DNA of 64,000 nucleotides from Pedobacter sp. Hv1 (GTDB lineage Bacteria > Bacteroidota > Bacteroidia > Sphingobacteriales > Sphingobacteriaceae), in assembly GCF_001412215.1 (NCBI RefSeq), contig NZ_LLWP01000004.1, forward strand, positions 682,001 to 746,000. The letters are read 5' to 3'. Position numbers and translations under genes: made by a program. Of the stretch, positions 6,860 through 57,710 are shown piece after piece. The notes beneath the pieces were generated by a model that saw only the letters and a list, made by a program, of their open reading frames with translations, was not told the origin of the DNA and ran no database searches. Within the stretch, counting starts at the first letter, position 1. The number at the start of each line of letters is the position of its first letter.

Positions 6860-7065
6860 GTTTCAGCCACTTGTATTTCGCAAGAACCCTATTCTATTCA
6901 ACATTCTTTAAATTTTGCGTAATTGAAAGCTATTGCTTTATTCTGTTTCAAAATATAAGGTGAGTGTTAAATTTCAATCACAACTTCATCAATCAACTTC
7001 ACCAATGTGCTGTTGCTCAAAAGCATCCCTTTCTTAAATGGCACAAATAAAGTATCACCTTGTTT

Positions 7066-7129
7066 ACAACAAGTTTTAGCCTTCCCATCAACTCTCTATT
7101 CAATAGCGCTATCGCAAACAATATTTTTA
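7066..7129 (+). promoter_or_regulatory. Composite direct-repeat promoter element, copy E (before susC)
   Basis: Repeat 1 ACAACAAGTTTTAG (7066-7079), spacer CCTTCCCAT, repeat 2 CAACTCTCTATTCA (7089-7102), then TATTTTTA at 7122-7129. Repeat starts are 23 bp apart and the TAnnTT box begins 33 bp after the start of repeat 2, as in copies A-D at 13733, 14318, 14702 and 15953. The susC start codon follows 43 bp later. Likely activator site plus promoter; the binding protein is inferred to be the LytTR regulator at 15163. Confidence 0.6.
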
Positions 7130-7172: not shown

Positions 7173-10100
7173 ATGAAAAAACTTGTACTAAGTTTATTCA
7201 TTTGGTGTGCTGTAACTATTGTAGTTTCTGCTCAAGAACGGACAATAACAGGTTCTGTAACATCAAGTGAAGACGGCTTGCCCATTCCAGGTGCATCCGT
7301 AAGAGTGAAAGAAGTGCCTACCCTCGTTGTAGCCACTGGCCCAGATGGAAAATTTTCGTTAAGAGTGCCAACTAACGGAAAAACATTGGTAATTACTTAT
7401 CTAGGGTTTATCACTAAAGAATTAACCATTGGCAATAACCGTGTTGTAAATGCAAAGCTTGAACCCGATGCTGCTACAAATCTTGATGAAGTAGTGATCA
7501 CTGCTGGTGGTGTAAGCATCAAACGTCGGCAACAGGGTAACCAAGCTACTACCATTAAATCGCAAGAGTTAACTCAAGCCAAAGCTTTTAACGTTGCCAG
7601 TGCACTCACAGGTAAAGTTGCCGGCTTACAGGTTAATGCAGTAAGTTCTGGTGTTAATCCAAGCGTTCGTTTGGTACTACGTGGCAACCGCTCCTTATTA
7701 GGCAATAACCAAGCCTTATTGGTAGTTGACAATTCAATTGTACCTACTGCCATGCTGGGCAACCTAAACCCAGAAGATATTGACAACATTGAAGTGTTAA
7801 ATGGAGCAGGAGCTGCTGCCCTTTATGGTTCTGAAGCATCAAATGGTGCATTGATCGTTACTACCAAGACCGGAAAAAGAGGTGTAACATCCATCACTTT
7901 ACAACAGACAACTGCAATAGAAACAGTTTCATACTTACCGCAATTACAAAAAAAATACGGTTCTGGTACCAGCCCAGACGATGTCCCTACATATACCCCT
8001 TTTGAAAACCAACAATATGGACCTGCCTTTGATGGCTCCATCAAACCAATTGGCAAACCAATTTCTGATGGGTCCATACAGATGGTACCTTATTCGTACA
8101 ACAAAACCGAAGGGAAGGATAACTTTTGGGAAACTGGTGCAGCCAGTCAATCAGATTTCAGCCTTTCTTCTGGTGATGATTTAGGTTCGTATTATTTTTC
8201 TAGCCAATATTTTAACCAAACAGGTACTGTACCGGGCGATAAATACAACCGATTTTCTATTCGTTTAAATGGAAAAAGGCAATTGAGCAAAAAGTTCAGT
8301 TTTGCCTTTAACGCCAATTATATCCAAAACAATTACGATAGAGGAAATTCAGGCACTGCTTTTCAAAATGTGTTAATGTCTCCTGGACAAATTCCGCTAA
8401 CCAGGTATAGTGACTGGAAAAATGACAAATACTCGACCCCTGATGGTTATTACAATGAGTATTTTGACAACCCTTACTTTACTTTAGGAAATGCCAGAAC
8501 CTTAACAAAGAACAATTACTTAAATGGCAACTTAGAATTTAGGTTCTCTCCTATCCAACCTTTGTCTTTATTGTTACGTGTAAACATGACCAATAGAAAT
8601 GCAGCAACAAAAAGCTGGTCTGATAAATATACCTATTCTGATTACAGGCTAAGTATTACCTCAGGCTTTGCCAATAGAACAGGTAGCATCTCTGATTCGG
8701 AATTGGTTGACACCCAATTGACACCAGAATTCCAGGCTTTATTTAATAAAAATTTGGGTCATAATCTTTCATTGAATGTTGTGGCCGGCACAAGCTTGCG
8801 TGACAACTGGACAAAAAACGTAGGTGCATCTTCGTCTGTAATGGTAGTACCAGGACTATACAATGTGAGCAATACCACAGGCAATACTTCTGGTACTGAG
8901 TCTATTTCTAGAAGAAGACAGCTAGGCGTATATGCCGATGCTCGTTTAGGTTATAAAAATTACCTTTTCTTACACGTAACCGGCAGAAACGATTGGCATT
9001 CGGTGCTCACTAAAGAAAATAGATCATTATTCTATCCCGCAGCCGACATCTCTTTTATTGCTTCCGATGCTTTAGAATTTTTGAAGCATTCTAAAGTTAT
9101 CCAAATTTTAAAGTTAAGGGGTGGTGTATCTAAGGTTGGTTTTGTAAATCTAAGCCCCTACGCACTAACACCTACATTTGGGCAACAAGGCGGTTATCCA
9201 TACGCTGGCATACCTGGATATGGCATTGGCGGCACTGTAGTTGCCCCATCAATTAAACCAGAGTTAACCAAAGGTATTGAAGCAGGTTTTGATATAGAAA
9301 TGTTAAAATCTAGGGTTATTGCTGGTGTTACGGTGTACAAAACAAGCACAACCGATCAGGTTATTGGTGTAAATATTCCAAGTGCTACAGGTTTTACCAC
9401 CTTTTTAACCAATACAGGCGATGTGCAGAATAAGGGTGTGGAGAGTACCGTTAGGTTAATTCCAATTCGTACACAATCGGGATTAGAAGTAAGCCTTGGC
9501 GCCAACTTTACATGGACACAAAACAAGGTTGTTTCCATTAGCTCAGACCAAAGTTTTATCAGTATTGGCGCTGGCGTTGTTGCAGAACAAGGCTTGCCTT
9601 TCCCAATGTTAAGAACCACCACTTATAACAAAGATCCGCAAGGGCGTGTAATTGTTGATCGCACTACAGGTATGCCAAGTGCAACTACTGTAAGTGGCAA
9701 TGTAGGCATTACTGAACCTACCCATCGTTTAGGTGTAGATTTAAGTGCTAGCTATAAAGGCTTCCGCTTAGCCACAGTATTCGAGTACCGTACCGGAAAT
9801 GTAATTTTAAGTAATGTGAGTACTGGTTTCGACTTCTCTGGAGCAGGCATTAGAACTACCTATTTTAACAGAGAACGTTTTGTGGTGCCTAATTCTTCTT
9901 ACTTAGACCCTGCTACCAACACTTATGTTGAAAACACCAACATTACCACTAGAACAGGAGGGGTAGATTTTTGGGGTAACGGACCAACAAATCTTGGTGT
10001 GGGTACCAATTACACCTATTCAGCTGCATTTTGGAAAATGCGTGAGCTTTCTTTGGCATACCAATTACCAAAATCTGTGTTAAGAAACATCAGATTTGTT

Positions 10101-12997: not shown

Positions 12998-13681
12998 ATG
13001 AAAATATTATTAACAACAAGTTTGGTATTAAGTCTGTCTTTTGTATCCTTTATTGAAAAAACAGCAATGTTGATCGATCAGTCTAAAGTAACCTATCAAA
13101 TAGGTGAAAATAAAAAGCTAAATGGATTATATACTATTGAGGACCAACAAAAAAACATTCGCATAAGAGGCAATTACAAAGAGAATAAAAGAATAGGAGA
13201 TTGGTATTGCTTTGATGCTAAGGGGCAAACAGTTTTAAGATACAACTACACCACTCAAAAAATATTGACATTAGATCAAGAATCAATTGCTACTGTTGAC
13301 ATTAAGGTATTGAGCAATGATACAGAAGTAAATGACAATGCAACTGTAGCCATACCGATCTGCTCTATAGATCAGTATAAAAAAATACTGATTGCAGAGC
13401 TCAAAGATCAAATGCCTCCCAAAGACAAATCTGAGGCAGCAAAGGTAACTGCATCCATTACTGCATTGGTAGACAAAGATGGTAAAGCAAAATATATAGC
13501 CACCTATATTTTAGATCAAGTAACGCATCAAAGCACTCTGTTTTTAAAGGATAAAGTATTTAATATAGAATGGCTACCTGCCAAATACAAGGGCCAATCT
13601 TATAGCGCTGAAGTTAAATTTGAAACCGCATTTAAAATAGACCCTTCGGCTGGCACAAGACGCTTTATTTGGAATTATTAA
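12998..13681 (+). CDS. Exported protein of unknown function
   Basis: 227 residues with a hydrophobic N-terminus (MKILLTTSLVLSLSFVSF) that is either a signal peptide or an anchor; no clear cleavage motif. Residues about 45-80 (NGLYTIEDQQ...RGNYKENKRIGDWYCFDAKG) resemble one or two antitoxin-YwqK/MORN-like repeats, a beta-hairpin repeat in which GxW and GxY recur. The remainder includes a KDGKAKYIATYILDQ segment reminiscent of TonB C-terminal-like or energy-transducing periplasmic domains, but I cannot assign it. It is monocistronic, between the SusC operon terminator and mscL. No function is proposed. Confidence 0.6.
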   Translation: MKILLTTSLVLSLSFVSFIEKTAMLIDQSKVTYQIGENKKLNGLYTIEDQQKNIRIRGNYKENKRIGDWYCFDAKGQTVLRYNYTTQKILTLDQESIATVDIKVLSNDTEVNDNATVAIPICSIDQYKKILIAELKDQMPPKDKSEAAKVTASITALVDKDGKAKYIATYILDQVTHQSTLFLKDKVFNIEWLPAKYKGQSYSAEVKFETAFKIDPSAGTRRFIWNY

Positions 13682-13732
13682 ATCATGTATATCCACTTAG
13701 CTTTAATGTACAAACAAAGTATCTATCGGTTC

Positions 13733-13796
13733 ACCACATGTTTTGGCCTTTCTGCCTACTCCCTATTTTACAAGTAGGTTTTGAGCAATATTTTTA
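13733..13796 (+). promoter_or_regulatory. Composite direct-repeat promoter element, copy A (before mscL)
   Basis: Repeat 1 ACCACATGTTTTGG (13733-13746), spacer CCTTTCTGC, repeat 2 CTACTCCCTATTTT (13756-13769), then TATTTTTA at 13789-13796, again 33 bp after the start of repeat 2. The mscL ATG is at 13812, so the transcript would have a very short leader. Confidence 0.65.
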
Positions 13797-13811: not shown

Positions 13812-14189
13812 ATGGGATTTGTAAAAGAATTTAAAGAATTTGCTGTTAAAGGCAACGTAATGGACCTGGCCATTGGGGTAATCATTGGTGGGGCTTTTGG
13901 TAAAATTGTGTCTTCGGCGGTTGACGATTTGATTATGCCGGTTATTGGAACAATTGTTGGCAATGATTTCGAGAAACTAACCACAACGATAAATGGGGCA
14001 ACTGTAAAATACGGCCTATTTATTCAGAATGTTGTGAACTTTACCATTATTGCACTTGTGATCTTTATGATGATCAAAGCCATGAACAATATGAAAAAGA
14101 AAGAAGCAGCTGCTCCTGCTGCTGCCCCTGCACCAGCTAAAGAAGAAGTGCTTTTAACTGAGATTAGAGATCTATTGAAAAACAAATAA
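13812..14189 (+). CDS. mscL: Large-conductance mechanosensitive channel
   Basis: MscL is a homopentameric inner-membrane pore that opens under membrane tension and releases solutes during hypo-osmotic shock. The 125-residue protein matches the family in length and order: amphipathic N-terminal helix ([22 protein letters not shown]), TM1 ([24 protein letters not shown]), periplasmic loop, TM2 (about residues 70-92, [15 protein letters not shown]) and a cytoplasmic helix ending in EIRDLLKNK. An alanine/proline-rich linker ([11 protein letters not shown]) sits between TM2 and the C-terminal bundle. Its promoter region contains copy A of the composite element, which suggests it belongs to the same regulon as the neighbouring RNA candidates. 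Confidence 0.97.
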
Positions 14190-14211
14190 CGAGAGGGATG
14201 ATTTATGTTAG

Positions 14212-14247
14212 AGTTGGTTCTGAGTTTACTCAGGCCAACTTTTTTTT
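14212..14247 (+). terminator. Intrinsic terminator of mscL
   Basis: AGTTGG (14212-14217) pairs with CCAACT (14235-14240), and CTGAG (14220-14224) with CTCAG (14229-14233), followed by a T-run. It lies 23 bp after the stop codon. Confidence 0.85.
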
Positions 14248-14317
14248 ATATATTTTCTTCGTGATCATCCTTAATTTAAAGTAAGTTAATCTGTTCAAAA
14301 ACAGTATTGGTCCATTC

Positions 14318-14381
14318 GCCATTTGTTTTAGCCTTTCTACACCATTTGCATTTGTTTTTATTGTTCATTTATATATTTTCA
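14318..14381 (+). promoter_or_regulatory. Composite direct-repeat promoter element, copy B
   Basis: Repeat 1 GCCATTTGTTTTAG (14318-14331), spacer CCTTTCTAC, repeat 2 ACCATTTGCATTTG (14341-14354), TATTTTCA at 14374-14381. In this copy the two repeats match each other best. No ORF follows; a hairpin starts at 14383. Confidence 0.65.
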
Positions 14382-14382
14382 A

Positions 14383-14588
14383 ACTACATAAACAAGCTGA
14401 TTGGTAGCGGTTTATGTAGTCTTTTCATAAAAGTGTTTGTGCACACAAACGTATAAAGACATTTGCAAGTAATGATCAAAACGCCGTGCATGAACATGAT
14501 TTTTTTTTATTTTAAGGCCATACTAGGGTTCAGAATATTGTTCTTAGATTAGTAGTTAATTTGTTATTCTCCTGGTATGGCCTTTTAA
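14383..14588 (+). ncRNA. Candidate structured small RNA downstream of element B
   Basis: No start codon with a useful ORF follows copy B. Instead there are three inverted repeats: 14383-14393 with 14410-14420 (11 bp, 16-nt loop); a GTTTGTG/CACAAAC palindrome at 14435-14450; and 14514-14527 with 14571-14584 (AAGGCCATAC...GTATGGCCTT, 14 bp with one U-G) followed by TTTT. A transcript from the TATTTTCA box would run about 200 nt and end at this last hairpin. The last hairpin resembles the one at 14963-15029. Existence of the RNA is inferred. Confidence 0.45.
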
Positions 14589-14701
14589 TGTTACTCCATT
14601 TCTATTTTCAGTTATTAGTTCATCAACCTGAAATTTCACAGCAAATAGCATAAATCAACATTGACGAGTTAATTGATTTTAAAAACATTATCATTGCATT
14701 C

Positions 14702-14765
14702 ACCACCTCTTTTTGCCTTTCTACACCATCTTTATTTGAACCCATTTATGGCGCAGTTATCTTAG
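14702..14765 (+). promoter_or_regulatory. Composite direct-repeat promoter element, copy C
   Basis: Repeat 1 ACCACCTCTTTTTG (14702-14715), spacer CCTTTCTAC, repeat 2 ACCATCTTTATTTG (14725-14738), TATCTTAG at 14758-14765, exactly 33 bp after the start of repeat 2. A non-coding stretch with hairpins follows. Confidence 0.65.
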
Positions 14766-14769
14766 CGTA

Positions 14770-14930
14770 TAAACTAAACACTAAATCATAATTAGGGTTG
14801 GATCTATTTCAAACTCGACCCCACTATTAACCATCAATAGAAATGTCTATGCCTAAAGAAGAATGGAGTACTCATGGGTGATGATAAAAATTCTTCTGGC
14901 ATAGCTTTTCTTTAATCAATGGTTTTTTTT
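14770..14930 (+). ncRNA. Candidate structured small RNA downstream of element C
   Basis: From the expected start near 14770 the sequence has no ORF but forms a nested fold. An outer stem AACCAT (14829-14834) / ATGGTT (14919-14924) encloses CTATGCC (14847-14853) / GGCATAG (14898-14904) and AGAAGAAT (14857-14864) / ATTCTTCT (14890-14897), with a 3-nt bulge. Eight T residues (14923-14930) close it like a terminator. Length about 160 nt. Inference from structure and promoter position. Confidence 0.45.
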
Positions 14931-14962
14931 AGATGGCGTCAGCTCTAATTTAAAAACACACT

Positions 14963-15029
14963 AAACCATGCTCAGGACATTTACGTATTGTAATTTTAGG
15001 TTAATATTTAATTCCTGACATGGTTTTTT
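14963..15029 (+). ncRNA. Terminator-like hairpin homologous to the one at 14514-14584
   Basis: AAACCATG (14963-14970) pairs with CATGGTTT (15019-15026), and CAGGA (14973-14977) with TCCTG (15013-15017), followed by T residues to 15029. The loop shares TATTGT, a TTAG core and TTAATT with the loop of the 14514-14584 hairpin, while the outer stem bases differ in a compensatory way (GGCCAT/ATGGCC versus AACCAT/ATGGTT). It has no element copy of its own and may be the 3' part of the copy-C transcript. Confidence 0.4.
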
Positions 15030-15162
15030 AAATTTCAAGACAAGTCTACTCATTACAAACCGACTGAGTATATCAACCGTTCAATAAATGAGCACACACT
15101 TAGCTCACTTACCATTTAATCAAACTTGATCCTTGTGAGCTTCCAGAACCTATTTAGCGATG

Positions 15163-15861
15163 TTAGAGAATAGGCATGCGTCTGTTTAAAGCAGTTCGGT
15201 AGGCATCAGCAATCGGTACCATGTGACCATTTACCACCAATGTTTTTCCCTCAATCGTATCTACTTTACCTAAGTTAACAATAAAAGAGCGATGCACTCT
15301 AAAAAAGAGATTCTTTGGTAGCTTCTCTTCCAAAGAAGTGATAGAAGAGTGAATGGAATAACTCTGGCCCGACGACAGGTGAATGTTTACATAATTCACA
15401 CTCGCCTCAAGGTATAAAATATCAGCTATTTTAATTCTTCTAATGGTATATGAATCACGGATGAATACAAATTCATCATTTTCGCTAGACATTACCAAAT
15501 CCTTGGTTTTAGCTACTTTTTTTGCTTTCTCTACGGCTTTCAGAAACCTGCTTGGCTCTATAGGTTTGATCAGATAATCAATCACATTTAGATTAAATGC
15601 TTCTAAGGCATATTCTGTTTGCGAAGTTGTGAAAATAACCATAGGCCCTTTGTCTTGGATTATTTTGGCTAATTCTATTCCATTCATTCCTGGCATTTCA
15701 ATATCCAGAAAGAGCAGATCAATTTCTTCTTCTACAATAACTTTGTGTGCCATAAATGCATCAACATAGCTACCAATCAAAGTCAATGAGGGGTCGAGGC
15801 CAATTAAATTGCCTATAATTAAATGAAAAGCTTTCTGATCATCTACAATTAAACACTTCAT
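15163..15861 (-). CDS. LytTR-family response regulator (orphan)
   Basis: A receiver domain (residues 1-118; MKCLIVDDQ with the acidic pair, phospho-acceptor Asp53 in LDIEMPG, conserved Lys in DYLIKPIE) is joined to a LytTR DNA-binding domain (about 130-232; EASVNYVNIHL, VHRSFIVNL). LytTR regulators bind imperfect direct repeats about two helical turns apart. The ATG at 15861 places the receiver at the N-terminus; an upstream ATG at 15897 would add 12 residues. No LytS/YehU-type histidine kinase is next to it, which is unusual for this family. Five copies of a 23-bp-period direct repeat lie within 9 kb, making it the prime candidate for their binding protein (inference). Confidence 0.93.
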   Translation of the reverse strand: MKCLIVDDQKAFHLIIGNLIGLDPSLTLIGSYVDAFMAHKVIVEEEIDLLFLDIEMPGMNGIELAKIIQDKGPMVIFTTSQTEYALEAFNLNVIDYLIKPIEPSRFLKAVEKAKKVAKTKDLVMSSENDEFVFIRDSYTIRRIKIADILYLEASVNYVNIHLSSGQSYSIHSSITSLEEKLPKNLFFRVHRSFIVNLGKVDTIEGKTLVVNGHMVPIADAYRTALNRRMPIL

Positions 15862-15952
15862 TAGTTCAAATAGGTTAGATTTATCGAAAGATATCAATTT
15901 TTTTACAATAATAAATGGTCAATTAAATTTAAAAGATAGTATTTATCTTTTA

Positions 15953-16016
15953 ACAACATGTTTTAGCCTTTTTACCCACTTTCTATTCCATCTCCTTACC
16001 AATGCCTTTAATTTAG
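15953..16016 (+). promoter_or_regulatory. Composite direct-repeat promoter element, copy D
   Basis: Repeat 1 ACAACATGTTTTAG (15953-15966), spacer CCTTTTTAC, repeat 2 CCACTTTCTATTCC (15976-15989), TAATTTAG at 16009-16016. It points toward the receiver-like gene at 16131 and lies in the divergent spacer of the LytTR gene. A 12-bp palindrome TTGATCGATCAA follows at 16041-16052. Confidence 0.65.
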
Positions 16017-16130: not shown

Positions 16131-16472
16131 ATGAATATTTTAATTTCCTTAGATTTCACTTTATATGAAATAGTTAAAAAAAACTGGCCAAAAGCTTTCA
16201 TCCAAGAAGTAAATAGTTTTGATGGCGTATTCAGAAGCATCTTTAACCTAAAGTATGAGCTATTGATCTTGGATGTGGATATGCCTGGAAATGAAAAATT
16301 AGCGATTTTTATTAGTAAAGCGGTTTTCTTTTGCAAGGTTGCTGTTTTTTCAAGTAAAAACAACATTGCTGCAATAAATAGGATGATGGTGGCAGGGGCT
16401 CATGTTTTTTTACCTTCAAAATTATCCAGCAAAGAGATTACTAACATATTAAATGAGCTCCAAAATAGTTAA
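16131..16472 (+). CDS. Stand-alone degenerate receiver-domain protein
   Basis: The 113-residue product folds like a lone receiver domain: strand MNILIS, LLILDVDMPG with a phospho-acceptor-like Asp48, a Ser in AVFSSKNN, and a Lys in GAHVFLPSKLSS. The acidic pair normally at the first strand is reduced to LD (residues 7-8), and there is no output domain, so metal binding and phosphorylation may be altered. It is divergent from the LytTR gene and sits behind copy D of the composite element. A 7-codon upstream ORF (16107-16130) ends with TAA directly abutting the ATG. Possible roles are phosphate sink, decoy or partner for the LytTR protein; these are inference. Confidence 0.7.
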   Translation: MNILISLDFTLYEIVKKNWPKAFIQEVNSFDGVFRSIFNLKYELLILDVDMPGNEKLAIFISKAVFFCKVAVFSSKNNIAAINRMMVAGAHVFLPSKLSSKEITNILNELQNS

Positions 16473-47581: not shown

Positions 47582-47612
47582 AGTGTATTAAAAAAAATTC
47601 ACCCCTATCGGT

Positions 47613-47658
47613 AAAAGAAGCTTTGTGCCACATTTACAGGCATAAAGCTTCTTTTTTT
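47613..47658 (+). terminator. Strong intrinsic terminator between chimeric regulator and locus 2
   Basis: A 17-bp stem with one G-U pair (47613-47629 with 47639-47655; core AGAAGCTTT/AAAGCTTCT) and a 9-nt loop is followed by T residues. It shows that locus 2 needs its own promoter. Confidence 0.9.
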
Positions 47659-47667
47659 ATGGAGATC

Positions 47668-57391: not shown

Positions 57392-57422
57392 ACGTTTACA
57401 TCAATTTTATTTTACACTTCAC

Positions 57423-57457
57423 ACAAAGCCGGTTGCATGAGCTGCAATCGGCTTTGT
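57423..57457 (+). terminator. Terminator-like hairpin after locus 2
   Basis: A 15-bp stem with one G-U (57423-57437 with 57443-57457; core ACAAAGCCG/CGGCTTTGT) and a 5-nt loop, but no strong T-run afterwards. Confidence 0.65.
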
Positions 57458-57710
57458 ACCTATCAATTGCTCTAAAAGATTGATAAGCGAAGTCATTATC
57501 AATTCTTCAAAGCGTAATCAAATAAAGGATGTCAACGCTAATGAGTTTAGCTCGCCTAAAGGCTTTCAGAGCATGGAGGCCATATCTTTAATGATCCTGT
57601 GGCATAAGTTCAACATCTTAAAATGGAGTTGAGGGGATTATGGTCATTGCTTTTAAAGATCAGGAAACACATCTTTTCCTATAATAATTGAGTACTTCTA
57701 TTGAAAATAA
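57458..57710. other. Non-coding spacer
   Basis: Holds an inverted repeat ATTGATAA/TTATCAAT (57479-57486, 57496-57503) and an AAAGCGTAAT sequence at about 57510, a partial match to the sites before loci 1 and 2. No gene is supported; short open frames here have no start codon. Confidence 0.4.

Follow-up and report, generated by a model that had tools for sequence, protein, structure and literature searches.

The intergenic region between mscL and a convergent gene for a LytTR response regulator in the 4.9-Mb genome of Pedobacter sp. Hv1 contains several strong hairpins and copies of a repeated element, and the question was whether these belong to regulatory RNA genes and, if so, what controls them. 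All coordinates refer to the window, that is, the 64,000-nt stretch of DNA that was analysed. The region spans 14190-15162. Neighbouring protein genes and one further hairpin are listed first.

13812..14189, + strand: mscL, large-conductance mechanosensitive channel (PF01741, E 2.4e-43)
about 14213-14247, + strand: terminator-like hairpin of mscL (terminator scan, sequence)
15163..15897, - strand: LytTR response regulator gene, presumed activator (PF04397, E 1.4e-19; PF00072, E 3.1e-18), with a reading frame that begins at TTG 15897
16131..16472, + strand: receiver-like ORF of 113 aa, located 3' of box 4 described below (PF00072, E 2.9e-4, a match below the curated cut-off)

Further upstream, an ORF of 227 aa at 12998-13681, between a SusC/SusD set and mscL, had no Pfam match.

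Hairpins of the intergenic region

The hairpins of the original prediction were recovered at their positions together with one at 14383-14419, and for each of the four none of 200 shuffled sequences was as stable.

14383..14419, + strand: 5' hairpin of RNA1 (z -5.0 for 14383-14430)
14514..14584, + strand: hairpin A, at the predicted 3' end of RNA1, followed by TTTT (z -6.0 for 14505-14590)
14829..14921, + strand: hairpin C, terminator-like, followed by T8 (z -3.6 for 14823-14932)
14963..15029, + strand: hairpin B, with a stem that runs into six T (z -4.8 for 14955-15035)

When the + strand of the larger intergenic regions of the window was scanned for folding, z was below -3 in 6 of 45 segments of 14190-15162 vs 6 of 187 segments elsewhere, so that half of all 12 such segments came from 45 of the 232 scanned. 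This is the most structure-rich intergenic region in the window. Strong folds were also seen directly 3' of genes at 57412-57491 (z -5.9) and 47582-47661 (z -5.2), and these are probably terminators. Within the window, tRNAs alone were matched by Rfam at the gathering threshold, RNA1 and RNA2 (defined below) falling in no family, and relaxed thresholds added only chance matches of no relevance. No ORF of at least 50 aa was found in 14190-15162, which bears out the original prediction that no reading frame explains the stretch. A decayed protein gene was also considered, and tblastn with the regulon's small proteins, the receiver and LytTR gave no credible match there.

Hairpins A and B had been described as sharing loop sequence while their outer stems change in pairs, and fold C as having the outer stem of B around a different interior. 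The stems GGCCAT/ATGGCC and AACCAT/ATGGTT are present, as are the runs of 4, 8 and 6 T after hairpins A, C and B, and the shared loop words of A and B can be read in the sequence. The similarity of the two loops is nevertheless at chance level, being equalled in 1313 of 5000 shuffles and in 1221 of 5000 with dinucleotides kept. For the arms it is marginal: out of 5000 shuffles, 82 equalled the left arm and 414 the right arm, and among 5000 that preserved the pairing 51 equalled the whole hairpin. The pair had been chosen post hoc. Fold C resembled A or B no better than shuffled sequences did. A genome-wide search with a covariance model built from A and B recovered these two alone (next best E = 4.3), and no further copy turned up. 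Given that the hairpins are not established as homologues and that their loops match no better than chance, the claim of covariation is unsupported; unrelated hairpins always differ in pairs, so GG/CC vs AA/TT alone is no proof of compensatory change. The case for structured RNA as such was supported, and it was strengthened by the promoter elements described next.

Promoter boxes and predicted transcripts

The repeated element was confirmed as four direct repeats, each a box of about 50 nt with the common core TTTDGCCTTTYTR, and two of the copies point into the hairpin stretch. The copies are predicted to be promoters, each made up of the box, 21 nt and the Bacteroidota -7 box TAnnTTTG. Boxes were scored by leave-one-out, and shuffled windows reached at most 5.0 bits.

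7050..7100, + strand: weaker box 5' of a SusC-type gene at 7173 that contains a Plug domain (3 mismatches; 34.0 bits; L076)
13717..13767, + strand: box 1, LytTR-type activator box, predicted to feed mscL (direct repeat; 52.6 bits; L065)
13789-13796, + strand: -7 box of box 1, TATTTTTA, at +21
14302..14352, + strand: box 2, predicted to feed RNA1 (38.5 bits)
14374-14381, + strand: -7 box of box 2, TATTTTCA, with 4/6 consensus bases at +21 and 5/6 at +19
~14385..14589, + strand: RNA1, predicted noncoding transcript with three hairpins and a start at 14384-14386 (z -4.3, 0/200 shuffles)
14686..14736, + strand: box 3, predicted to feed RNA2 (41.0 bits)
14758-14765, + strand: -7 box of box 3, TATCTTAG, at +21 with 5/6 consensus bases
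14770..14931, + strand: RNA2, predicted noncoding transcript starting at 14770 (z -3.5; z -4.1 with hairpin B)
15937..15987, + strand: box 4, divergent to the LytTR gene, predicted to feed the receiver-like ORF (53.6 bits)
16009-16016, + strand: -7 box of box 4, TAATTTAG, at +21

LytTR proteins bind direct repeats, and the repeats within a box, TTTCGTCG ... TTTCTGCC at about 20 bp from each other, would fit a tandem LytTR site. Boxes 2 and 3 both have the core and the upstream TTYRYC repeat. Each of the 13 distinct tabulated sites (14 entries, with box 4 entered twice) has an octamer resembling TAnnTTTG that starts 21 nt past the box; nine of the 13 are from other species, where the boxes were located without use of the -7 box. 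The octamer of box 2 is the weakest of those tabulated.

In a published Flavobacterium promoter map, the TAnnTTTG octamer is placed at -12 to -5 (PMC9723704). By this spacing, RNA1 is predicted to start at the first hairpin, with its first base among the opening bases of 14383-14419, and to be ~205 nt long. Since the terminator-like hairpin of mscL lies 5' of box 2, RNA1 should be a unit separate from mscL. RNA2 is predicted to be ~160 nt with a U8 terminator, or ~265 nt including hairpin B, for which the box scan found no LytTR box of its own; transcription may read on through hairpin B to 15034. As predicted from sequence, each RNA thus has the canonical features of an sRNA: its own promoter, no ORF, structure and an intrinsic terminator.

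The hairpins might instead be mere terminators or processed ends, with the boxes driving short transcripts that have no function and perhaps came about by duplication of box and promoter. The T8 and T6 at the ends of C and B suit this, as does the 77% identity of boxes 2 and 3 over ~70 nt, which suggests duplication. RNA1 and RNA2 are also without homologues: none was credible in 145 genomes of the genus, in which matches were short and at chance level, and the DNA of the hairpin stretch had no credible homologue among 59 relatives, plasmids or phages. The two DNA matches seen in relatives lie inside a GrpE-like gene and were discarded as chance. Selection on the structure of RNA1 and RNA2 is therefore not demonstrable. 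Against this explanation, the hairpin at 14383-14419 sits at a predicted 5' end, which is a useless place for a terminator, mscL already has a terminator ahead of box 2, and box-driven RNAs recur in other species, one of them conserved (see below). We regard it as unlikely.

Alternatively, RNA1 and RNA2 could be mRNAs for very short peptides, given a 26-aa frame from ATG 14472 in RNA1, a 12-aa frame from ATG 14843 in RNA2 and the small proteins among the other targets of the box. These short frames cross stems, however, and fall below 50 aa as does every frame in the region; they bear no likeness to the small proteins of the regulon, and there is no homologue of either RNA in which frames could be compared. 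A coding role therefore seems improbable.

Distribution of the box and its presumed activator

When a weight matrix made from the four boxes was applied to other species, the same box turned up 5' of LytTR orthologues, oriented away from the regulator gene. The pattern of box and -7 box was present in 30 of 63 genus genomes with a close LytTR vs 0 of 62 without (p 2e-11, 125 genomes), where close means a best match better than about 1e-60, a cut chosen after the table was seen, and where a few of the matches with 3 mismatches may be chance. The reversed box pattern, used as a control, had 0 matches. Within the own genome, the pattern of box plus -7 box with up to 3 mismatches gave 16 matches vs 0 for the reversed control; several of the weakest are inside coding sequence, and eleven sites, scoring 32-54 bits when each was left out of the model, make up a coherent set.

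The LytTR regulator encoded at 15163-15897 most likely activates RNA1 and RNA2, judging from the box and its position. The activator may be another LytTR protein, because the genome has several paralogues, and the boxes could then belong to that paralogue or to some other activator, with the neighbouring gene only adjoining the targets. In favour of this, the genome encodes four close relatives of LytTR with 52-100% identity. In many species, however, the box stands divergent to LytTR orthologues, and it is absent where a genome has no close LytTR, which leaves only the choice among paralogues. We consider this alternative as a whole improbable. A 67% identical paralogue on contig 1 (L184:7463-8167) is closer to the regulator of the window than all orthologues of the 144 other genus genomes, which suggests a lineage-specific duplication. 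In a scan of genome contigs for relatives of the regulator, the best match was in Pedobacter frigiditerrae, and loci were found at up to 53% identity. No histidine kinase gene lies beside the copy in the window, whereas in L035, and likewise for the paralogue on contig 6, the LytTR gene is followed by an ORF that, judged from its sequence, encodes a TPR-type sensor kinase.

At least three other species have predicted box-driven RNA genes, and one case is conserved. In G059 (L201, about 75 nt, z -4.8) and in G109 (L216:1560-1692, + strand, about 133 nt, z -4.5) the box is followed by an ORF-less stretch and a strong terminator. A homologue of the G109 RNA occurs in G087 (L230:1498-1635, - strand), also behind a box and TAGTTTTG, and the neighbouring genes of the two differ. 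From G109 to G087 the terminator stem changes from GTAAGTAG/CTGCTTAC to GTAAATAG/CTATTTAC, with one double change of G-C to A-U and one change of U-G to U-A; a covariation statistic would need more than these two sequences. Conservation with compensatory change was thus found only for this pair and not for RNA1 or RNA2. The word AGGGTT looked enriched in four box-driven RNAs and was dropped as a post hoc find that is not kept in the G087 homologue.

ORF-less stretches with the promoter signature of the regulator's family and with strong hairpins make it probable that small regulatory RNAs under this regulator are encoded here. We consider it somewhat better than an even chance that RNA1 and RNA2 are LytTR-activated small RNAs that work like VirR and VR-RNA of Clostridium perfringens. 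The region would then consist of two noncoding transcription units, each with a promoter of the class tied to this LytTR subfamily, in which the activator box occupies about -34 to -85 and stands at a fixed spacing from a sigma-A -7 box. The phosphorylated regulator would bind the box and recruit RNA polymerase, so that RNA1 and RNA2 would be produced together with mscL, the receiver-like ORF, the SusC gene and small secreted proteins. Both would be trans-acting regulatory RNAs, and pairing to mRNAs is their most likely mode of action. Pairing with mRNAs had been proposed as a check, and with 32 start regions of the window neither RNA paired better than shuffled RNAs. Other possible modes of action are titration of a protein and a cis effect on the convergent lytTR mRNA.

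VirR is a response regulator of the LytTR family, and its regulon in C. perfringens is the closest known system. The two have in common a box of direct repeats of ~50 bp, a response regulator, and protein genes together with ORF-less units under the same box. The VirR system differs in phylum and box sequence, and the -7 box here is that of Bacteroidota. VirR boxes lie 5' of core promoters and drive protein genes as well as VR-RNA, virT and virU, and the RNA genes of the regulon have been gained and lost between strains (PMC2838878). Two or three of the VirR-dependent RNAs are proven by mutants whereas RNA1 and RNA2 are predicted from sequence, so that they cannot be counted as part of a proven RNA cascade. 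In Staphylococcus aureus, the LytTR regulator AgrA likewise has a regulatory RNA gene, RNAIII, adjoining its own locus; RNAIII is ~500 nt long, also codes for a peptide and lies beside a quorum-sensing operon. The RNA genes here similarly adjoin a LytTR regulator, but an RNA of ~500 nt, an encoded peptide and a quorum-sensing operon were not seen. CiaR of streptococci is not known to be a LytTR protein. It has several csRNAs under its promoter box (PMC3091779) and these are highly similar to each other (PMC4507080), unlike RNA1 and RNA2. GibS (PMC7366714), which has its own start and terminator, and Rfp18 (PMC9723704) are, like RNA1 and RNA2, intergenic sRNAs of Bacteroidota; in the available text of these papers LytTR control is not described, and Rfam gave no sign that their sequences are related to RNA1 and RNA2.

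A controller is known for only a few of the regulatory RNAs in Bacteroidota. In the literature searched, no paper covered both LytTR and Pedobacter, and just one, which by its title and abstract touches on the matter incidentally, combined LytTR, small RNA, Bacteroidetes and promoter. The LytTR-tied box provides a handle for finding such RNAs across the genus; five box-driven units, including one homologous pair, are predicted so far from four species. All box-driven RNAs can be tested by deletion of one regulator, and the fixed promoter type allows the gain of RNA genes to be followed. More tentatively, the genus might have a LytTR network in which one box serves surface or secreted proteins as well as a set of small RNAs that changes fast, with box duplication as the source of new RNA genes; the two RNA units here would be the post-transcriptional output or feedback arm of an orphan regulator. 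We hold this broader view to be possible, with more doubt than confidence.

Protein genes behind the box

The majority of the box sites in other species drive proteins. In the loci that were read, the box beside LytTR orthologues feeds a secreted protein, about 200 aa long and similar to an M16-type fragment, with a weak NCBIfam match to an M16-related family. In the own genome, boxes at L069, L071, L072 and L073 (C2:327364, C1:923137, C3:142174 and C4:434103) precede small secreted proteins that contain cysteine. They terminate with a hydrophobic stretch plus basic residues (e.g. CPLDDY...FFIRKR), similar to sorting tags, and NCBIfam had no name for them. There is one exosortase-family match in this genome, at C1:493320. 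In L069, from 53 nt past position 1501, a leader of about 170 nt separates the LytTR box from the gene and contains complementary arms, AGCCTAC/GTAGGCT; it is perhaps a structured leader.
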